Source: Coriobacteriaceae bacterium (lineage in GTDB: Bacteria; Actinomycetota; Coriobacteriia; Coriobacteriales; Atopobiaceae). Taken from it: a stretch of DNA of 38,075 nt. Positions 5,954-38,073 of the stretch are shown piece by piece. The notes below the pieces were generated by a model. That model was not told the DNA's origin, made no database searches, and saw only the letters and a list, made by a program, of their open reading frames with translations. Location: positions 1-38,075 of the forward strand of contig QOUO01000016.1 in the NCBI GenBank assembly GCA_003862195.1, given 5' to 3'. A program made the position numbers and the translations under genes. Position 1 is the first letter of the stretch. Every line of letters begins with the position of its first letter.

Positions 5954-8173
5954 CTACTGCGTCAGCTCGAGGTAGAGGTCGCGGTACTGCTTTGCGGACT
6001 TCTCCCAGCTCACGTCCTTGTTCATGTCGCGCTTGACCATCTCGTCCCAGCACCAGCGGTTGGTGAAGTACAGCGTCTTGGCGCGGTTGATGGCGTCGTA
6101 CAGCAGGCCGGCGTCGTAGCGGTCAAAGGTGAAGCCGTTGCCCTCGTTGCTGTACTTGTTGTAGGGCTCGACCGTGTCCTTGAGGCCGCCGGTCTCGCGC
6201 ACGATGGGGATAGTGCCGTAGCGCATCGCGATGAGCTGCGTCAGGCCGCACGGCTCGAAGCGCGAGGGCACCATGAGTGCGTCCGCGCCGGCGTAGATCT
6301 GGTGCGAGCGCGCCTCGTCGTACATGATGTTGGAGCAGACCGTGCCCTTGTACGTGTTCTCATAGTAGCGGAACGAGTCCTCGTACTGAGCATCGCCCGT
6401 GCCCAGGAGCACGACCTGGGTGTTGCCATCCACCATGCCGGGGATGACGGCGTTCACGAGGTCGAGGCCCTTCTGGTCCGTCAGGCGCGATATGAGGCCG
6501 ATCACCATCTTGGCGTCGTCCACCTCGAGGCCAAGCTCCTCCTGCAGGGCGCGCTTGTCCTCCTTCTTGTTGTCGATCACGTTCTTGGCGTCGTACGGCT
6601 TCTGGATGAACGTGTCCCGCGCGGGGTCCCAGATGTCCACGTCGATGCCGTTGACGATGCCGCGCAGCTTCCAGGAGTGGTAGCGCAGGTGCGCGTCGAG
6701 CCCCTCGCCGTACTCCGGGCTCTGGATCTCCTGCGCATAGGTGCCGCTCACGGTGGTGATCATGTCCGCGTAGGCGAGGCCGCCCTTGAGGATGTTGGCC
6801 TCGGTCCAGTCCTGCTGGAGCGCGCCCTCGTTGAAGACGTAGTCGGGCAGGTTGGTCCAGTACTTGATGGTGGGGATGTTGTACTTGCCCTGGAAGCGCA
6901 GGTTGTGGATCGTGAGCACGACCTTGGAGCGGCCGAGCGGCGTGTTCTGGAACATAGTCTTGAGGAACAGCGGCACCAGGCCCGCCTGCCAGTCGTGGCA
7001 GTGGATCACGTCGGGCGTCCAGTCAAGGTAGTTGAGCGCCGCGAGCGCCGCCTTGCTGAAGTAGCAGTAGCGCGGGATGTCGTCCACCAGGTTGGTGTAG
7101 GGGTTGCCGTAGCTGAAGAAGTCCTGGTTGTCGATGAAGTCGTACACGACGCCGGAATCCGCCACGTACTCCATGATGCCCACGTAGAAGCTGCGGCCGT
7201 CCGCGCACAGGTCCATGTCAAACGATCCGCGGTAGACCATCTTCTCCTGCCACTGCTCCTTGATGCAGGCGTAGCGCGGCAGGATCACCTTGACGTCGCA
7301 GTTCTGCGCGACGAGCGCCTTGGGCAGTGCGTACATGACGTCGCCCAGGCCGCCGGTCTTGACAAAGGGGTAGCACTCGGACCCGATGAAGCAGATGCTG
7401 CGGCGCGGCTGGGGGAGAGGAGCGGGCTCCGCCTTGGGTGCGGGCTCCGCCTTGGGCTCCGGCTTTGCCTTGGCTGCAGCCTTGGGCTCCGGCTTTGCCG
7501 CGGGCTCCGCCTTGGGCGCGGGGGCTGCCTTGGCCGCCGGCTTTGCGGCGGGCTTGGGCTCCGGTTTGGCGGCAGGCTTGGTCGCGGTCGCAGGCTTCGG
7601 CTCGGGCTTGGGCTCAGGCTTTGCCGCGGGCTTGGCCTCGGGCTTCGGCTCGGCCTTGGCGGCAGGCTTGGGTGCGGCCTTGGGCTCGGGCTTGGGCGCT
7701 GCTGCCGGCTTTGCCGCGGGCTCCGCCTTGGGGGCGGGGGCTGCCTTCGCGGCGGGCTTCTCCGCTGGGGCCGAAGGCTTGGCCTCTGGCTTGGCGGGTG
7801 CGCTCTTCTCGTCTGCCTTTACCTGCGGCTTCGCTGCAGCCTTGGGAGCCGGGGCGGCCTTTGCGGGTGCCGGCTCTGCCTTCGGCGCAGTTGCGGTCTT
7901 GGGCTCAGCCTTGGGTACGGCTGCGGCCTTGGGCTCGGCCTTCGGCGTGGCTGCGGGCTTGGGCTCGGACGCTGCTACCGGCTTGCTCGTCACGGGAGTG
8001 GCCGCCTTGGGCTCCGGCTTGCTTGCGGTTGGCTTGGCTGCTGTCGGCTTTGCTACCGTGGCCTTGGCGGTCGACGCCGCGGACTTGGTGGCGGGCTTTG
8101 CCGTGGTCCGCTTCCTGGCCGCCGGCTTTGAGGTTGACTTTGCTCTTGAGCTGGTCCTTTTTCTGGTGGCCAT
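5954..8173 (-). CDS. glgA: Glycogen synthase with a long Lys/Ala/Pro-rich N-terminal tail
   Basis: This is a 739-residue protein. Residues from about 255 to the end form a GT5 glycogen/starch synthase, which transfers glucose from ADP-glucose (or UDP-glucose) to a growing alpha-1,4-glucan. It shows the KTGGLGDV nucleotide-sugar motif near the domain start, HDWQAGLVPL, and the C-terminal SRFEPCGLTQLIAMRYG with the ETGGLKDTV that follows. That domain alone has the normal GlgA length (~480). The first ~250 residues are an added basic, low-complexity tail (KPEPKAA, AAKPEPKP and similar units), resembling histone H1 or cell-wall/DNA-binding linkers. ATG 8173 is preceded by GAGGAG; a GTG two codons earlier is too close to that site. 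The tail's role is unknown; it could tether the enzyme to polyphosphate, nucleic acid or membrane. Confidence 0.9.
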   Translation of the reverse strand: MATRKRTSSRAKSTSKPAARKRTTAKPATKSAASTAKATVAKPTAAKPTASKPEPKAATPVTSKPVAASEPKPAATPKAEPKAAAVPKAEPKTATAPKAEPAPAKAAPAPKAAAKPQVKADEKSAPAKPEAKPSAPAEKPAAKAAPAPKAEPAAKPAAAPKPEPKAAPKPAAKAEPKPEAKPAAKPEPKPEPKPATATKPAAKPEPKPAAKPAAKAAPAPKAEPAAKPEPKAAAKAKPEPKAEPAPKAEPAPLPQPRRSICFIGSECYPFVKTGGLGDVMYALPKALVAQNCDVKVILPRYACIKEQWQEKMVYRGSFDMDLCADGRSFYVGIMEYVADSGVVYDFIDNQDFFSYGNPYTNLVDDIPRYCYFSKAALAALNYLDWTPDVIHCHDWQAGLVPLFLKTMFQNTPLGRSKVVLTIHNLRFQGKYNIPTIKYWTNLPDYVFNEGALQQDWTEANILKGGLAYADMITTVSGTYAQEIQSPEYGEGLDAHLRYHSWKLRGIVNGIDVDIWDPARDTFIQKPYDAKNVIDNKKEDKRALQEELGLEVDDAKMVIGLISRLTDQKGLDLVNAVIPGMVDGNTQVVLLGTGDAQYEDSFRYYENTYKGTVCSNIMYDEARSHQIYAGADALMVPSRFEPCGLTQLIAMRYGTIPIVRETGGLKDTVEPYNKYSNEGNGFTFDRYDAGLLYDAINRAKTLYFTNRWCWDEMVKRDMNKDVSWEKSAKQYRDLYLELTQ

Positions 8174-8351
8174 GTGCACTCTCCTCGACGTTCACCAAAC
8201 GGCCCGCCGCAGCTGCGAACGTGCGGCAGGCATGCCTTTTGCATGCCCATCCATTGTAACTTTGCGGGCGGGCGTTCGCGGGTCGTTGCGGGCAGTGTGG
8301 TCGTCTGGGCGTCTGGCGGTTGCGGACGCCCGTTCGCGCTAAGGTAGGTGC

Positions 8352-17347: not shown

Positions 17348-17526
17348 GTAACATCGTGACAAATCACATAGCCATTCTACCTGCGGTTGTTTCGATTTCG
17401 CTACGTCTGGGAAACCCAACGGTATCCAGCCGATGAGGATTTGCGCACGCGGGCCGCGCGGGCGCGTTTCGGACATAAAATCCGTTTGGTATGTTGCCAC
17501 CTGAGGCAAAAGCGAGAGGAGACCCG

Positions 17527-23949: not shown

Positions 23950-26040
<2,091 letters not shown>

Positions 26041-26126
26041 CAGTCCTCCTCTGACGGAATTTGACCGTAGGCCGAATGGCGGCCCCTCGTACATAATGAA
26101 TCATAGCGATTGCCCGTTGCCCCCAA

Positions 26127-26142
26127 ATTTCGTCAATGTGAC
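26127..26142 (-). promoter_or_regulatory. GlnR-like box before glnN
   Basis: Read toward glnN, this is GTCAC-ATTGAC-GAAAT, the 5-6-5 spacing of actinobacterial GlnR half-sites (gTnAC-n6-GaAAc). It stands directly upstream of a possible -35 TTGGGG (26121-26126) and -10 TATGAT (26100-26105, short 15-base spacer). No GlnR gene is in the window. Confidence 0.4.
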
Positions 26143-26143
26143 G

Positions 26144-26159
26144 GTTACGAATACGAAAC
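26144..26159 (+). promoter_or_regulatory. Second GlnR-like box, opposite orientation
   Basis: GTTAC-GAATAC-GAAAC on the plus strand matches the same 5-6-5 pattern and starts two bases after the first box. The pair is back-to-back between glnN and the DUF1295 gene. Confidence 0.4.
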
Positions 26160-26334: not shown

Positions 26335-27129
26335 ATGACCTGGTTCCTCATCGTGTTCGCGGTCGCGCTGGCGGCAAGCGCCTGCGGCTTCAAGAAGTAC
26401 GTCTGGTTCATCTCCATCGGCTACGGCGCGGCCGTGGCCGCCATCGGCGTCGTGCTCCTGCTGGCCTTTGGCGCGCAGGCGCCCCTGGCGGCCTGCCTGC
26501 AGGCGGCGCTCCTCGTGGCGTACGGCGTGCGCCTTGCGGGCTACCTTGCGTACCGCGAGGTCAAGAGCCGCACGTACAACCAGAAGATGCGTGGCGAGAT
26601 CAAGTCGAACGACGGCGTGGGCATGGGCGCCCGTGTGGGAATCTGGGTCTCCGCCGCGCTGCTCTACGCGTGCGAGACGTCCCCCGTGCTCTTCCGTATG
26701 GGCTCCGGGGCGTCCACGGACGTCCTTCTCGTCCTGGGGCTCGTCATATCCGTCTTTGGCCTCGCCTTCGAGACCGCGGCCGACCTGCAGAAGAGCGCCG
26801 CAAAGCGCCGCAACCCGCGCCGGTTTGTGGACAGCGGTCTGTACCGCATCGTGCGCTGCCCCAACTACCTGGGCGAGCTCCTCATCTGGACAGGTGTCTT
26901 CGTGTCCGGTCTGGGCGTGTACGAGGGCGCGGCGCAGTGGGTGGCGGCGCTTGCCGGCTACCTGGGGATCGTGTACGTGATGTTCGGCGGCGCCAGGCGT
27001 CTGGAGATGCGGCAGAACCGCAGCTACGGCAAGGACCCGGCGTATCAGGCGTACGTGCGCAGCACGCCGATCCTCATCCCCTTTGTGCCGCTGTACAGCG
27101 TAGAGAAGTACACGTGGCTCGTGGCGTAG
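26335..27129 (+). CDS. DUF1295 membrane protein (steroid 5-alpha-reductase fold)
   Basis: This 264-residue polytopic protein belongs to the DUF1295/isoprenylcysteine methyltransferase-like group. The C-terminal signature is RFVDSGLYRIVRCPNYLGEL, followed by LLIWTGVFVSGLG and a later YGKDPAYQAYVRSTPILIPF. About six membrane segments are visible. Members are thought to reduce or methylate lipid-like substrates, but the substrate is unknown. ATG 26335 follows GGAGTGC; an open frame to 26275 is unsupported. Its leader has a small hairpin (TTGCCCA 26275-26281 with TGGGCAA 26290-26296). A motif copy encodes Val-Leu-Leu in a membrane segment. It is divergent from glnN. Confidence 0.82.
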   Translation: MTWFLIVFAVALAASACGFKKYVWFISIGYGAAVAAIGVVLLLAFGAQAPLAACLQAALLVAYGVRLAGYLAYREVKSRTYNQKMRGEIKSNDGVGMGARVGIWVSAALLYACETSPVLFRMGSGASTDVLLVLGLVISVFGLAFETAADLQKSAAKRRNPRRFVDSGLYRIVRCPNYLGELLIWTGVFVSGLGVYEGAAQWVAALAGYLGIVYVMFGGARRLEMRQNRSYGKDPAYQAYVRSTPILIPFVPLYSVEKYTWLVA

Positions 27130-28876: not shown

Positions 28877-30304
28877 GTGCGGGGAAGGCTTGCTGACATA
28901 GTGAGGAGGCTCGCGCCTGTCGCGCTGTGGGTGTGCGTGTGGCAGGTCGCGAGCCTTGTCGTGGGGAGCGGCATCCTGCTGGCCGGTCCCGTGGACACGG
29001 TTGTGAGGCTGGCGTCGCTCCTGGGCGATGCCAGCTTCCTTTCGACGGTGGGGTTCTCGCTCGTGCGGATCGTCGTCGGCTTTGCGCTGGGGTTTGCGGG
29101 CGCGGTGGCGCTCGCGTTTGCCGGGGCGCGTTGGGGCGTGGTGCGCACGATCTTCTCGCCCGCGTTGAGCGTGCTCAAGAGCGTGCCCATCGTCTGCGTG
29201 ATCGTGCTGCTGCTCATGTGGGTTGGCGCTGGCAGCGTGTCCGCCGTGGCGGTGTTCTTGGCCGTGTTCCCGGCGGTGTTCTTTAGCTGCTCCGAGGCGC
29301 TTGACAACGTGGACGCAAAGACGGGCGAGATGCTCGAGGTCTTTGGCGTGCCGCGCGTGCGGCGGCTGCTCGCGCACGTCTGGCCCGAGGTGCTGCCGTA
29401 CCTGGTGGGCACGAGCCGGAACGTGTGCGGCATGGCGTGGAAGGCGGGCGTCGCGGCGGAGCTCATCGGGAGCCCGATGGGGTCGATCGGCGAGCGCATC
29501 TACCAGTCGAAGCTCCTGCTTGAGACTGCGGACCTGTTTGCGTGGACCATCGTGATCGTGGTGATGTCGTGGCTGTGCGAGCGCGCCTTTGTGGCGGTGC
29601 TTGCGCGCACGGGATCGTGGGCACTGCGGGCGAGCCTGCGCGTCGGGCGACCGAGGCGTACGGTTGGCGTAGGGGAGTGTGGCGCGCGCACTGACGGGGT
29701 GCGCCGCGGTGAGGTCGTGCTGGATGGCGTCACGATCGGCTACCCCGGACGCGTGGTGGCGAGGGGCGTCCGCATGGACGTGACGCCTGGTGAGCGCGTG
29801 ATCTGCTCGGACGCGTCCGGCGCGGGCAAGACGACGCTGCTGCGGACCGTGGCGGGACTCCAGCCGGCGCTTGCCGGCACTTGCGCCGTTGGCGGAGCCG
29901 TGACGATGGCCTTCCAGGACGTGCGGCTGATTGGCGGCATGTCTGCGGTGCAGAACCTGCTGCTTGTGATTGGTTCGAGCCGTGACGACGGGGCGCGGGA
30001 TCGCGCGCGGGAGCTCCTGGCGGAGCTTCTGCCTGCGGAGACGCTGAACGTTCCCGTGGACCAGCTTTCTGGCGGGCAGCGCCGCAGGGTCGAGCTTGCC
30101 CGGGCCATCGCCGCGCCGGGCGACGTGGTGCTGCTGGACGAGCCGTTCGCGTCGCTGGACGCCGCATCGCACGAGGTGGCCGCGCGGTTTGTGACGGGCC
30201 ACCTTGGGGGACGCACGCTGATAGTCGCCTCGCACGAGGCTGGCGACGCCGAGCGACTGGACGCCACGGCGTACTCGCTGGGCGGGACTGCGGCCGAGGC
30301 CTAG
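28877..30304 (+). CDS. Single-chain ABC permease-ATPase fusion
   Basis: This is a 475-residue protein. Residues 1 to ~255 are a BPD-type permease of the NitT/TauT/SsuC class (FAGARWGVVRTIFSPALSVL, then KSVPIVCVIVLLLMWVGAGS; the EAA loop is FGVPRVRRLLAHVWPEVLPY). From ~270 it continues as an ABC ATPase: Walker A SDASGAGKTTLLR near 312, Q-loop AFQDVRLIGG, signature LSGGQRRRVELARAI near 396, Walker B VVLLDEPFASLD near 416, and H-loop VASHEAG. These are normally separate proteins; the ATPase is short (~205 residues). GTG 28877 has a poor ribosome site; GTG 28901 lies 12 bases after GGGGAAGG and is an alternative. A motif copy on the opposite strand (29152-29161) lies in the permease. Confidence 0.85.
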   Translation: MRGRLADIVRRLAPVALWVCVWQVASLVVGSGILLAGPVDTVVRLASLLGDASFLSTVGFSLVRIVVGFALGFAGAVALAFAGARWGVVRTIFSPALSVLKSVPIVCVIVLLLMWVGAGSVSAVAVFLAVFPAVFFSCSEALDNVDAKTGEMLEVFGVPRVRRLLAHVWPEVLPYLVGTSRNVCGMAWKAGVAAELIGSPMGSIGERIYQSKLLLETADLFAWTIVIVVMSWLCERAFVAVLARTGSWALRASLRVGRPRRTVGVGECGARTDGVRRGEVVLDGVTIGYPGRVVARGVRMDVTPGERVICSDASGAGKTTLLRTVAGLQPALAGTCAVGGAVTMAFQDVRLIGGMSAVQNLLLVIGSSRDDGARDRARELLAELLPAETLNVPVDQLSGGQRRRVELARAIAAPGDVVLLDEPFASLDAASHEVAARFVTGHLGGRTLIVASHEAGDAERLDATAYSLGGTAAEA

Positions 30305-36096: not shown

Positions 36097-38073
36097 ATGA
36101 AGCAGTTCAAGACCGAGAGCAAGAAGCTCCTGGACCTGATGATCAACTCGATCTACACCAACAAGGAGATCTTCCTGAGGGAGCTCATCTCCAACGCGTC
36201 CGACGCGCTGGACAAGCTGAGCTTCGAGGGCCTCACGGACGAGTCCAAGCGCGTGGACGAGGAGCTGGCCATCAACCTGGCCTTCGACAAGGACGCCCGC
36301 ACGATCACCGTGTCCGACAACGGCATCGGCATGACGGAGGACGAGCTCGACAAGAACCTGGGCACAATCGCACACTCCGGGTCAGAGCAGTTCAAGGAGA
36401 AGAACGCGGACGCCCAGGGTGACGCCGTGGACATCATCGGCCAGTTTGGCGTGGGCTTCTACTCCAGCTTCATGGTCGCGAAGCGCGTGCGCGTGGTGAG
36501 CCGCGCTCTGGGCGAGGCGCAGGCCAACACCTGGGAGTCCGACGGCGTGAGCGGCTACAGCATCGAGGCCACGCCCGCGGACCAGCTGCCCGAGGCGCTC
36601 GCCGGCGAGCACGCGCACGGCACGCAGATCACGCTCTTCCTGCGCGACTCCACGGAGGAGGACGACACGGACCAGTTCCTGAGCGAGTGGAAGCTCCGCG
36701 ACCTGGTGCGCCAGTACTCCAACTACGTGCGCTACCCCATCCGCATGATGGTCACCAAGAGCCGCGAGAAGCCGGCGCCCGACCCCAAGCCGGACGACTA
36801 CAAGCCCGAGTACGAGGACTACCAGGAGCTCGAGACCCTCAACTCCATGACGCCGATCTGGAAGAAGCGCAAGTCGGACGTGGAGCAGAAGGACTACGAC
36901 GAGTTCTACAAGTCCACGTTCCACGACTGGGAGAAGCCGCTGCGCACCGTGAGCTTCCACGCCGAGGGCGCCATCAGCTACGACGCGCTGCTCTTCATCC
37001 CGAGCGTGGCGCCGTTCGACCTCTATAGCAAGGACTACCAGAAGGGCCTCGCGCTCTACAGCTCGAGCGTCCTCATCCAGGAGAAGTGCGCGGACCTGCT
37101 GCCCGACTACTACAACTTCGTCCGCGGCATCGTGGACTCGCCGGACGTCACGCTCAACATCTCGCGCGAGACGCTGCAGCAGAACTCGCAGCTCCGCGCC
37201 ATCGCCCGCCGCGTCGAGAAGAAGGTCACGTCCGAGCTTGAGGACATGCGCGACAACGACCGCGAGTCGTACGAGAAGTTCTTCAACAACTTTGGCCGCG
37301 GCCTGAAGTTTGGCATCTACAACAGCTTTGGCTCCAAGTCCGACGAGCTGGCAGACCTGCTGCTGTTCTACTCCGCGCGCGACAAGAAGATGGTCACGCT
37401 CAAGGAGTACGTCGACGGCATGGCCGAGGGCCAGGACAAGATCTACTACGCGGCCGGCGAGACCCGCGAGCTGCTCGAGCAGACGCCCGCGGTCCGCAGC
37501 GCCCTCAAGCACGGCTACGACGTCCTTCTCTGCACGGAGAACGTGGACGAGTTCATGTTCCAGTTCCTGCGCAGCTACCACGTGGACGCCGTTGCCGGCG
37601 ACTCCGAGCACAAGGGGACCGAGGCCCGCGACATCGAGCTGCAGAACGTGGCCGACGCCAAGCTCGACCTCGCCACGGAGGACGAGAAGAAGGCGGCCGA
37701 GAAGGCCACGGAGGACAACAAGGAGCTCTTTGGCGAGCTCAAGGACGCCCTCGACGGCAGGGTGAGCGAGGTCAAGGTGTCTGCCAGCCTGGACGACGAC
37801 ACGCCCGCGACCGTAAGCGCCGAGGGTCCCGTCTCGCTCGACATGGAGCGCCGCCTGCAGCAGACGCCCGACGCCGACAAGGCGCCCAAGGCCAGCCGCG
37901 TGCTCATGCTGAACGCGAAGCACCCGGTCTTTGGCAAGCTCCAGGCCGCCAAGGACGACAAGAAGCGCCTTGCCCTCATGGGCGACATCCTCTACAACCA
38001 GGCGCTCCTGGTCGAGGGCCTGCCCGTGGAGGACCCGGCCAAGTTCGCGCGCGAGATCACGGAGCTCATGTAG
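36097..38073 (+). CDS. htpG: HtpG, Hsp90-family chaperone
   Basis: This 658-residue protein is a complete HtpG. The ATPase domain has LRELISNASDALDKL, DNGIGMTEDELDKNLGTIAH and GQFGVGFYSSFMVA. The middle domain has NYVRYPIRMMV and GIVDSPDVTLNISRETLQQN. The C-terminal dimer domain lacks MEEVD, as usual in bacteria. It refolds or remodels client proteins using ATP. ATG 36097 follows GGGGAGGAAG. The 131-base leader has no CIRCE or HAIR repeat; ATACGA (36000-36005) and TCGTAT (36030-36035) form a short inverted pair. The stop lies two bases before the window end. Confidence 0.97.
   Translation: MKQFKTESKKLLDLMINSIYTNKEIFLRELISNASDALDKLSFEGLTDESKRVDEELAINLAFDKDARTITVSDNGIGMTEDELDKNLGTIAHSGSEQFKEKNADAQGDAVDIIGQFGVGFYSSFMVAKRVRVVSRALGEAQANTWESDGVSGYSIEATPADQLPEALAGEHAHGTQITLFLRDSTEEDDTDQFLSEWKLRDLVRQYSNYVRYPIRMMVTKSREKPAPDPKPDDYKPEYEDYQELETLNSMTPIWKKRKSDVEQKDYDEFYKSTFHDWEKPLRTVSFHAEGAISYDALLFIPSVAPFDLYSKDYQKGLALYSSSVLIQEKCADLLPDYYNFVRGIVDSPDVTLNISRETLQQNSQLRAIARRVEKKVTSELEDMRDNDRESYEKFFNNFGRGLKFGIYNSFGSKSDELADLLLFYSARDKKMVTLKEYVDGMAEGQDKIYYAAGETRELLEQTPAVRSALKHGYDVLLCTENVDEFMFQFLRSYHVDAVAGDSEHKGTEARDIELQNVADAKLDLATEDEKKAAEKATEDNKELFGELKDALDGRVSEVKVSASLDDDTPATVSAEGPVSLDMERRLQQTPDADKAPKASRVLMLNAKHPVFGKLQAAKDDKKRLALMGDILYNQALLVEGLPVEDPAKFAREITELM

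Follow-up and report, generated by a model that had tools for sequence, protein, structure and literature searches.

The window analyzed here is a stretch of DNA of 38,075 nucleotides, which carries on its minus strand a gene, glnN, starting with an ATG at 26040. A domain search identified its product as a type III glutamine synthetase (GSIII), with matches to both GSIII_N (6e-80) and Gln-synt_C-ter (4.5e-41). The original prediction placed two back-to-back GlnR-like boxes upstream of this gene, and a pattern scan of the window recovered both of them at their predicted places, namely GTCAC-n6-GAAAT on the minus strand at 26127-26142 (GTCACATTGACGAAAT) and GTTAC-n6-GAAAC on the plus strand at 26144-26159 (GTTACGAATACGAAAC), albeit separated by one base (26143) and not by two. 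What that reading of the site had overlooked is a third half-site, GCAAC, on the coding strand and its fixed 10-nt distance to a TATGAT hexamer. The features of the locus, together with a weaker site elsewhere in the window, are as follows:

26138-26142, minus strand: GTCAC, distal half-site of the coding-strand array (scan and cross-family comparison)
26127-26131, minus strand: GAAAT, middle half-site, 11 bp from the distal GTCAC (scan and cross-family comparison)
26116-26120, minus strand: GCAAC, proximal half-site, 11 bp beyond the middle GAAAT (Gibbs motif, half-site scan and cross-family comparison)
26100-26105, minus strand: TATGAT, -10-like hexamer exactly 10 nt past the proximal GCAAC (motif and cross-family comparison)
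26144-26159, plus strand: GTTAC-n6-GAAAC, inverted box shared by the genus (three genomes) and probably accessory (scan and sister alignment)
23950-26040, minus strand: glnN, type III glutamine synthetase of 696 amino acids, the putative controlled gene (ORF list and domain match)
17400-17415, plus strand: GCTAC-n6-GAAAC, weak half-site pair upstream of gltB, a possible target (scan and sister alignment)

The window also encodes a glycogen-synthase-like protein whose N-terminal part includes a long segment rich in Ala, Lys, Pro and Glu (5954-8179, minus strand; function assigned by reading) and, downstream of a gene for an NMT1-like binding protein, a single protein in which permease and ABC ATPase domains are fused (28877-30301, plus strand).

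The pattern GTNAC-n6-GAAAY occurs twice in the window against an expectation of 0.17, a number that was reached in one of 100 shuffles. Over the whole genome, the 16-mer pattern by itself shows hardly any enrichment (14 matches versus 10 for the reversed pattern), so that the motif alone proves little and the weight falls on comparative evidence; accordingly, these genomic counts were set aside as proof. The triple half-site pattern has eight matches in the genome versus four for its reverse, two of the eight being the arrays at glnN and amtB, and a third precedes a gene for a YfcC-like transporter (named by reading its translation), as it does in both sister genomes. We further defined a strict element, GHAAY-n10-TAnnnT, which matches only once in the whole window, at the promoter of glnN. 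A search of 581 kb of strand, drawn from this genome and its relatives, gave 21 matches, seven of which are at glnN or glnA promoters.

Among the genomes of the class, full-length matches to GSIII are found in all 78 Coriobacteriales and in none of the 42 genomes of other orders (counted from the table). In genera g30 and g35 at least two matches to the enzyme are seen in all 16 g30 genomes and in many g35 genomes. From more than 150 places listed for GSIII in the family we studied 69 upstream regions (70 with one added for the strict-element count), L036 being omitted because its match began at residue 35. Unsupervised Gibbs sampling of 39 of the 69, drawn from 26 genera with at most two per genus, yielded the motif GnAACA-n9-TAGnnT along with an upstream half-site in 11-bp phase, with a best score of 563 against 316-328 for shuffled sequence. 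Pairs of coding-strand half-sites in the 69 regions peak at spacings of 11 (48 pairs) and 22 (35 pairs), with no other spacing exceeding 16 pairs, and those in 11 amtB upstream regions peak likewise at 11 (19 pairs) and 22 (17 pairs), with at most three at any other. The strict element is present upstream of GSIII in 54 of 70 regions from what we take to be the Atopobiaceae, 17 of 24 from the Eggerthellaceae and 8 of 12 from the Coriobacteriaceae (shuffle expectations 0.53, 0.28 and 0.12, respectively), these family assignments being based on the named relatives of the regulator described below. As related sequences are not independent, we also counted by genus, obtaining 21 of 27, 12 of 15 and 4 of 5. 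It is absent from the remaining 16/70, 7/24 and 4/12 regions, though the regulator is present in most of these genomes; two further genomes, G218 and G018, were excluded from the family counts and are reported separately. A chance resemblance to GlnR sites, for which the commonness of the 16-mer in the genome might speak, is contradicted by the conservation of the element and its geometry across families, by the 11/22-bp phasing and by the unsupervised recovery of the motif, and we hold it to be exceedingly improbable.

The glnN half-sites are of the GTnAC-n6-GnAAC type, in 11-bp phase on the coding strand, and agree with consensus forms of the GlnR box such as gTnAc-n6-GaAAc and t/gTAAC-n6-Gc/aAAC, which the review PMC10704036 places mostly on the coding strand. 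The divergent pair is not the conserved unit; what most likely functions is the series of direct half-sites that run in 11-bp phase along the coding strand. Both boxes are kept in two sister species, as the original prediction required, and it is the element with its -10 geometry that is conserved across the three families. Taken as a pair, the boxes read as an imperfect palindrome, TTTCGT-n4-GTnAC-n-GTnAC-n4-ACGAAA, and fall in the block that is best conserved between the sister species; this 33-bp inverted repeat (~26127-26159) could be viewed as the operator of an unrelated dimeric repressor, its likeness to GlnR sites being incidental. This is very unlikely, given that other genera and families have direct repeats at a fixed distance to the -10 hexamer, and that even in the genus of the window the third half-site and its spacing obey the direct-repeat rule. 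Similarly, the plus-strand box points toward a divergent gene at 26335 (DUF1295 family), and the sites might be imagined to serve this gene and not glnN. We consider this even less plausible, since it is the glnN strand that carries the family-wide element, and since the sister genomes keep the boxes, yet have a different sequence upstream of the block, which by our reading is the end of a gene transcribed the same way as glnN. All three genomes of the genus have the plus-strand box, and no exact counterpart was seen among the relatives compared outside it. Because other genera have direct repeats, we interpret it as probably an accessory upstream site or a lineage-specific one peculiar to the genus; it could also be a chance resemblance kept through recent descent.

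Six proteins of the genome pass the cut-off for the OmpR-type DNA-binding family. One of these, L003 (G000:C90:41862-42530), emerges from sequence matches to PDB entries and from its placement in a tree as the GlnR-type response regulator that the original prediction proposed to look for. It has an OmpR-type C-terminal DNA-binding domain (Trans_reg_C, 2.5e-23), and Pfam gave no Response_reg match, i.e. no recognisable receiver domain; on reading the alignment, the phosphorylation-pocket aspartate, D54, is present in L003, with glutamate in its place in four of five Eggerthellaceae-type rows. GlnR chains are its best matches among the PDB sequences (106.9 and 104.9 bits, with the next non-GlnR chain at 70.9), and a class-wide profile separates them likewise (140.7 versus 95.4 for the next non-GlnR chain). 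The best-matching chains are the GlnR proteins of Saccharopolyspora erythraea and Mycobacterium tuberculosis, and identity to a GlnR chain is about 38% over the aligned part. A tree of 53 rows places L003 together with GlnR and actinobacterial homologues and separates it from four of its own paralogues with support of 100/99, the sampling of the OmpR family being confined to GlnR, these homologues and the four paralogues (L004 was left out) and the rows of unnamed homologues being trimmed so as to keep no more than 90 residues ahead of the match. In the NCBIfam scan, from which the sixth OmpR-type protein, L004, was omitted, every match of L003 fell below its cut-off and no GlnR model was among the matches listed. 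A fold comparison with a predicted model of L003 (pLDDT 85.5, pTM 0.61) was rejected as proof of GlnR identity, with PrrA best by E-value and GlnR (8hih) ninth and not above other OmpR proteins.

Strong homologues of L003 (E below 1e-40) were counted in 128 of 140 genomes of the family, and among the 101 of these with completeness of 90% or more and contamination of 5% or less a homologue is missing from only two, G018 and G032. In the class as a whole 116 of 120 Coriobacteriia genomes have a strong homologue, the exceptions being G018, G218, G192 and G201. Named relatives include proteins from Parafannyhessea umbonata (95%) and Olsenella phocaeensis (93%), and more distantly from Collinsella, Slackia and Adlercreutzia. 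The gene order at the locus is glnA (a type I synthetase), a fused binding-protein/permease gene, its ATPase, L003, an htrA-like and a ligA-like gene; L003 is an orphan, with no sensor kinase gene among its neighbors in this genome. Outside the family glnA directly precedes the regulator on the same strand at all 14 loci examined, and inside it the two lie in one cluster in four of four cases, separated by the transporter. An amtB-like gene follows the regulator in G191. This glnA-linked neighborhood connects the regulator with nitrogen without recourse to any binding site. In the fused protein of the glutamine-type transporter (L011:11556-13760, minus strand) a DUF2808 match lies between the binding-protein and permease parts.

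Genomes without the regulator provide a further comparison. G218, which has no strong homologue of it and only a distant relative of glnA, has an eroded GSIII promoter, with CAAAA, ATAAC and TCGTTT in place of the GAAAA, GAAAC and TAGTTT (TAATTT in one) of six relatives; a second promoter-like sequence further downstream, TGCTATCGT, is kept despite this erosion. The latter sequence is common to the Eggerthellaceae-type GSIII upstream regions, where it lies downstream of the GlnR element. G032 has no element at GSIII and neither the regulator nor glnA was found in it, but it says little, because regulator-bearing genomes may also be without the element. In G018, a fragmented assembly of 140 pieces, the element at GSIII is intact and again neither regulator nor glnA was found. 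Thus two of the three regulator-less genomes fit a joint loss of regulator and element, and G018 does not. A rival possibility is that another protein of the OmpR family, for instance the MtrA-like L002, occupies the direct repeats in place of the GlnR-type protein or jointly with it. L002 has its top NCBIfam score with the MtrA model, at a value that does not reach the cut-off of that model, and MtrA and GlnR boxes are the subject of a title in the reference list of PMC11000389. Only L003, however, clusters with glnA and matches GlnR best, and in G218 the element is eroded in the absence of an L003 homologue despite 13 weaker OmpR-family matches, possibly with MtrA-type proteins among them; we therefore judge involvement of such a protein to be improbable and favor L003.

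The original prediction also extended to other nitrogen genes, and here it holds for amtB and glnA, with gltB offering only a weak pair. A box like that of glnN stands before amtB and before glnA in this genome, where a P-II gene follows amtB. In the 20 genomes tried amtB was found in 12, and its upstream regions, though not all of them, have the clearest arrays, such as five half-sites in series in G042. Upstream of glnA a half-site pair followed by n10 and NAnnnT is present at 27 of 49 loci, with an n9-TATAAT form at six more; the reverse strand of the 49 regions gave no match to the glnA-type element. The pair at gltB reads GCTAC-n6-GCTAC in both sister species. From the two-half-site scan we dropped the matches lying within an operator-like palindromic repeat (G001, G114); others, near genes whose translations read as trpB-like, ilvD-like, AGCS-like and phenylacetate-CoA-ligase-like, count as no more than leads. 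Some further arrangements were observed: at L011:14048-14079 (plus strand) GTCAT-n6-GTAAC-n10-TATACT lies just behind glnA and points against it, which could be chance or an antisense promoter; at L117 (G079) amtB is directly downstream of the end of a type III synthetase gene, as if in one operon; and in G001 and G002 triple half-site arrays precede a peptide-transporter-like permease gene, in G002 adjoining htpG. In the window htpG (36097-38073, plus strand) is the last gene, and as the contig stops there any corresponding array would lie beyond it.

Taken together, these observations make it highly probable that 26100-26142 on the minus strand is a GlnR-dependent promoter of glnN, to which the regulator would bind head to tail as a class II activator, and that the same regulator would drive amtB-glnK and the glnA-led cluster. 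GlnR control of a GSIII gene, the central proposal of the original prediction, is in this way upheld at the level of sequence. We infer that L003, encoded beside glnA and a glutamine-type ABC transporter, would occupy GTCAC, GAAAT and GCAAC at 11-bp spacing, in line with PMC10704036, where four DNA-binding domains of GlnR are described as sitting head to tail on the DNA. With 10 nt between the last half-site and the -10 hexamer, the protein would sit over the usual position of a -35 element, and it may recruit RNA polymerase there, acting by activation and not by repression. The signal would presumably be nitrogen limitation, and amtB-glnK and L003's own glnA-led cluster would respond to the same regulator.

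The glnA promoters differ from those of GSIII in their -10 hexamer. With n10 geometry, the first base of the hexamer is not T in 12 of 12 glnA promoters of Atopobiaceae or Coriobacteriaceae type (our assignment), whereas TAnnnT is retained in the GSIII promoters of the same families; T is kept in 13 of the 15 other n10 glnA promoters, and it is at Eggerthellaceae-type loci that the six n9-spaced TATAAT forms occur. In one tentative and rather doubtful scenario, GlnR already controlled nitrogen assimilation before the Coriobacteriia split from other Actinomycetota; the GSIII gene, once gained by the Coriobacteriales, was drawn into the GlnR regulon and replaced glnA in its starvation role, after which the GlnR promoter of glnA itself changed. 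A literature search found no report of GlnR in Coriobacteriia (Collinsella, Eggerthella and Atopobium relatives). If correct, our reading would extend the classic actinobacterial nitrogen regulator to this class, with its relatives of Olsenella, Collinsella and Eggerthella, would bring a type III glutamine synthetase under GlnR, and would offer a handle on nitrogen sensing in these gut bacteria, with conserved sites that make the regulon directly testable.

The predicted system resembles the GlnR regulon of Streptomyces and Mycobacterium (glnA, glnII, amtB-glnK-glnD), as set out in PMC10704036, in having an orphan regulator of the OmpR type, GTnAC and GnAAC half-sites with n6 between them and mostly on the coding strand, and amtB-glnK and glnA as (here predicted) targets. 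It differs from that regulon in that the target is a type III synthetase, in that the regulator gene is located directly after glnA or in its cluster, and in the further divergence of the receiver part of L003, to the point of lacking a Response_reg match. The geometry recalls class II activation of the PhoB type, where the 11-bp direct repeats of the pho box end about 10 nt before the -10 and replace the -35 element; here, unlike the pho box, the half-sites are GnAAC/GTnAC, and L003 scores well below with PhoB chains. GlnR and TnrA of Bacillus share the name and nitrogen targets, but belong to the MerR type family and recognize a different, palindromic site.
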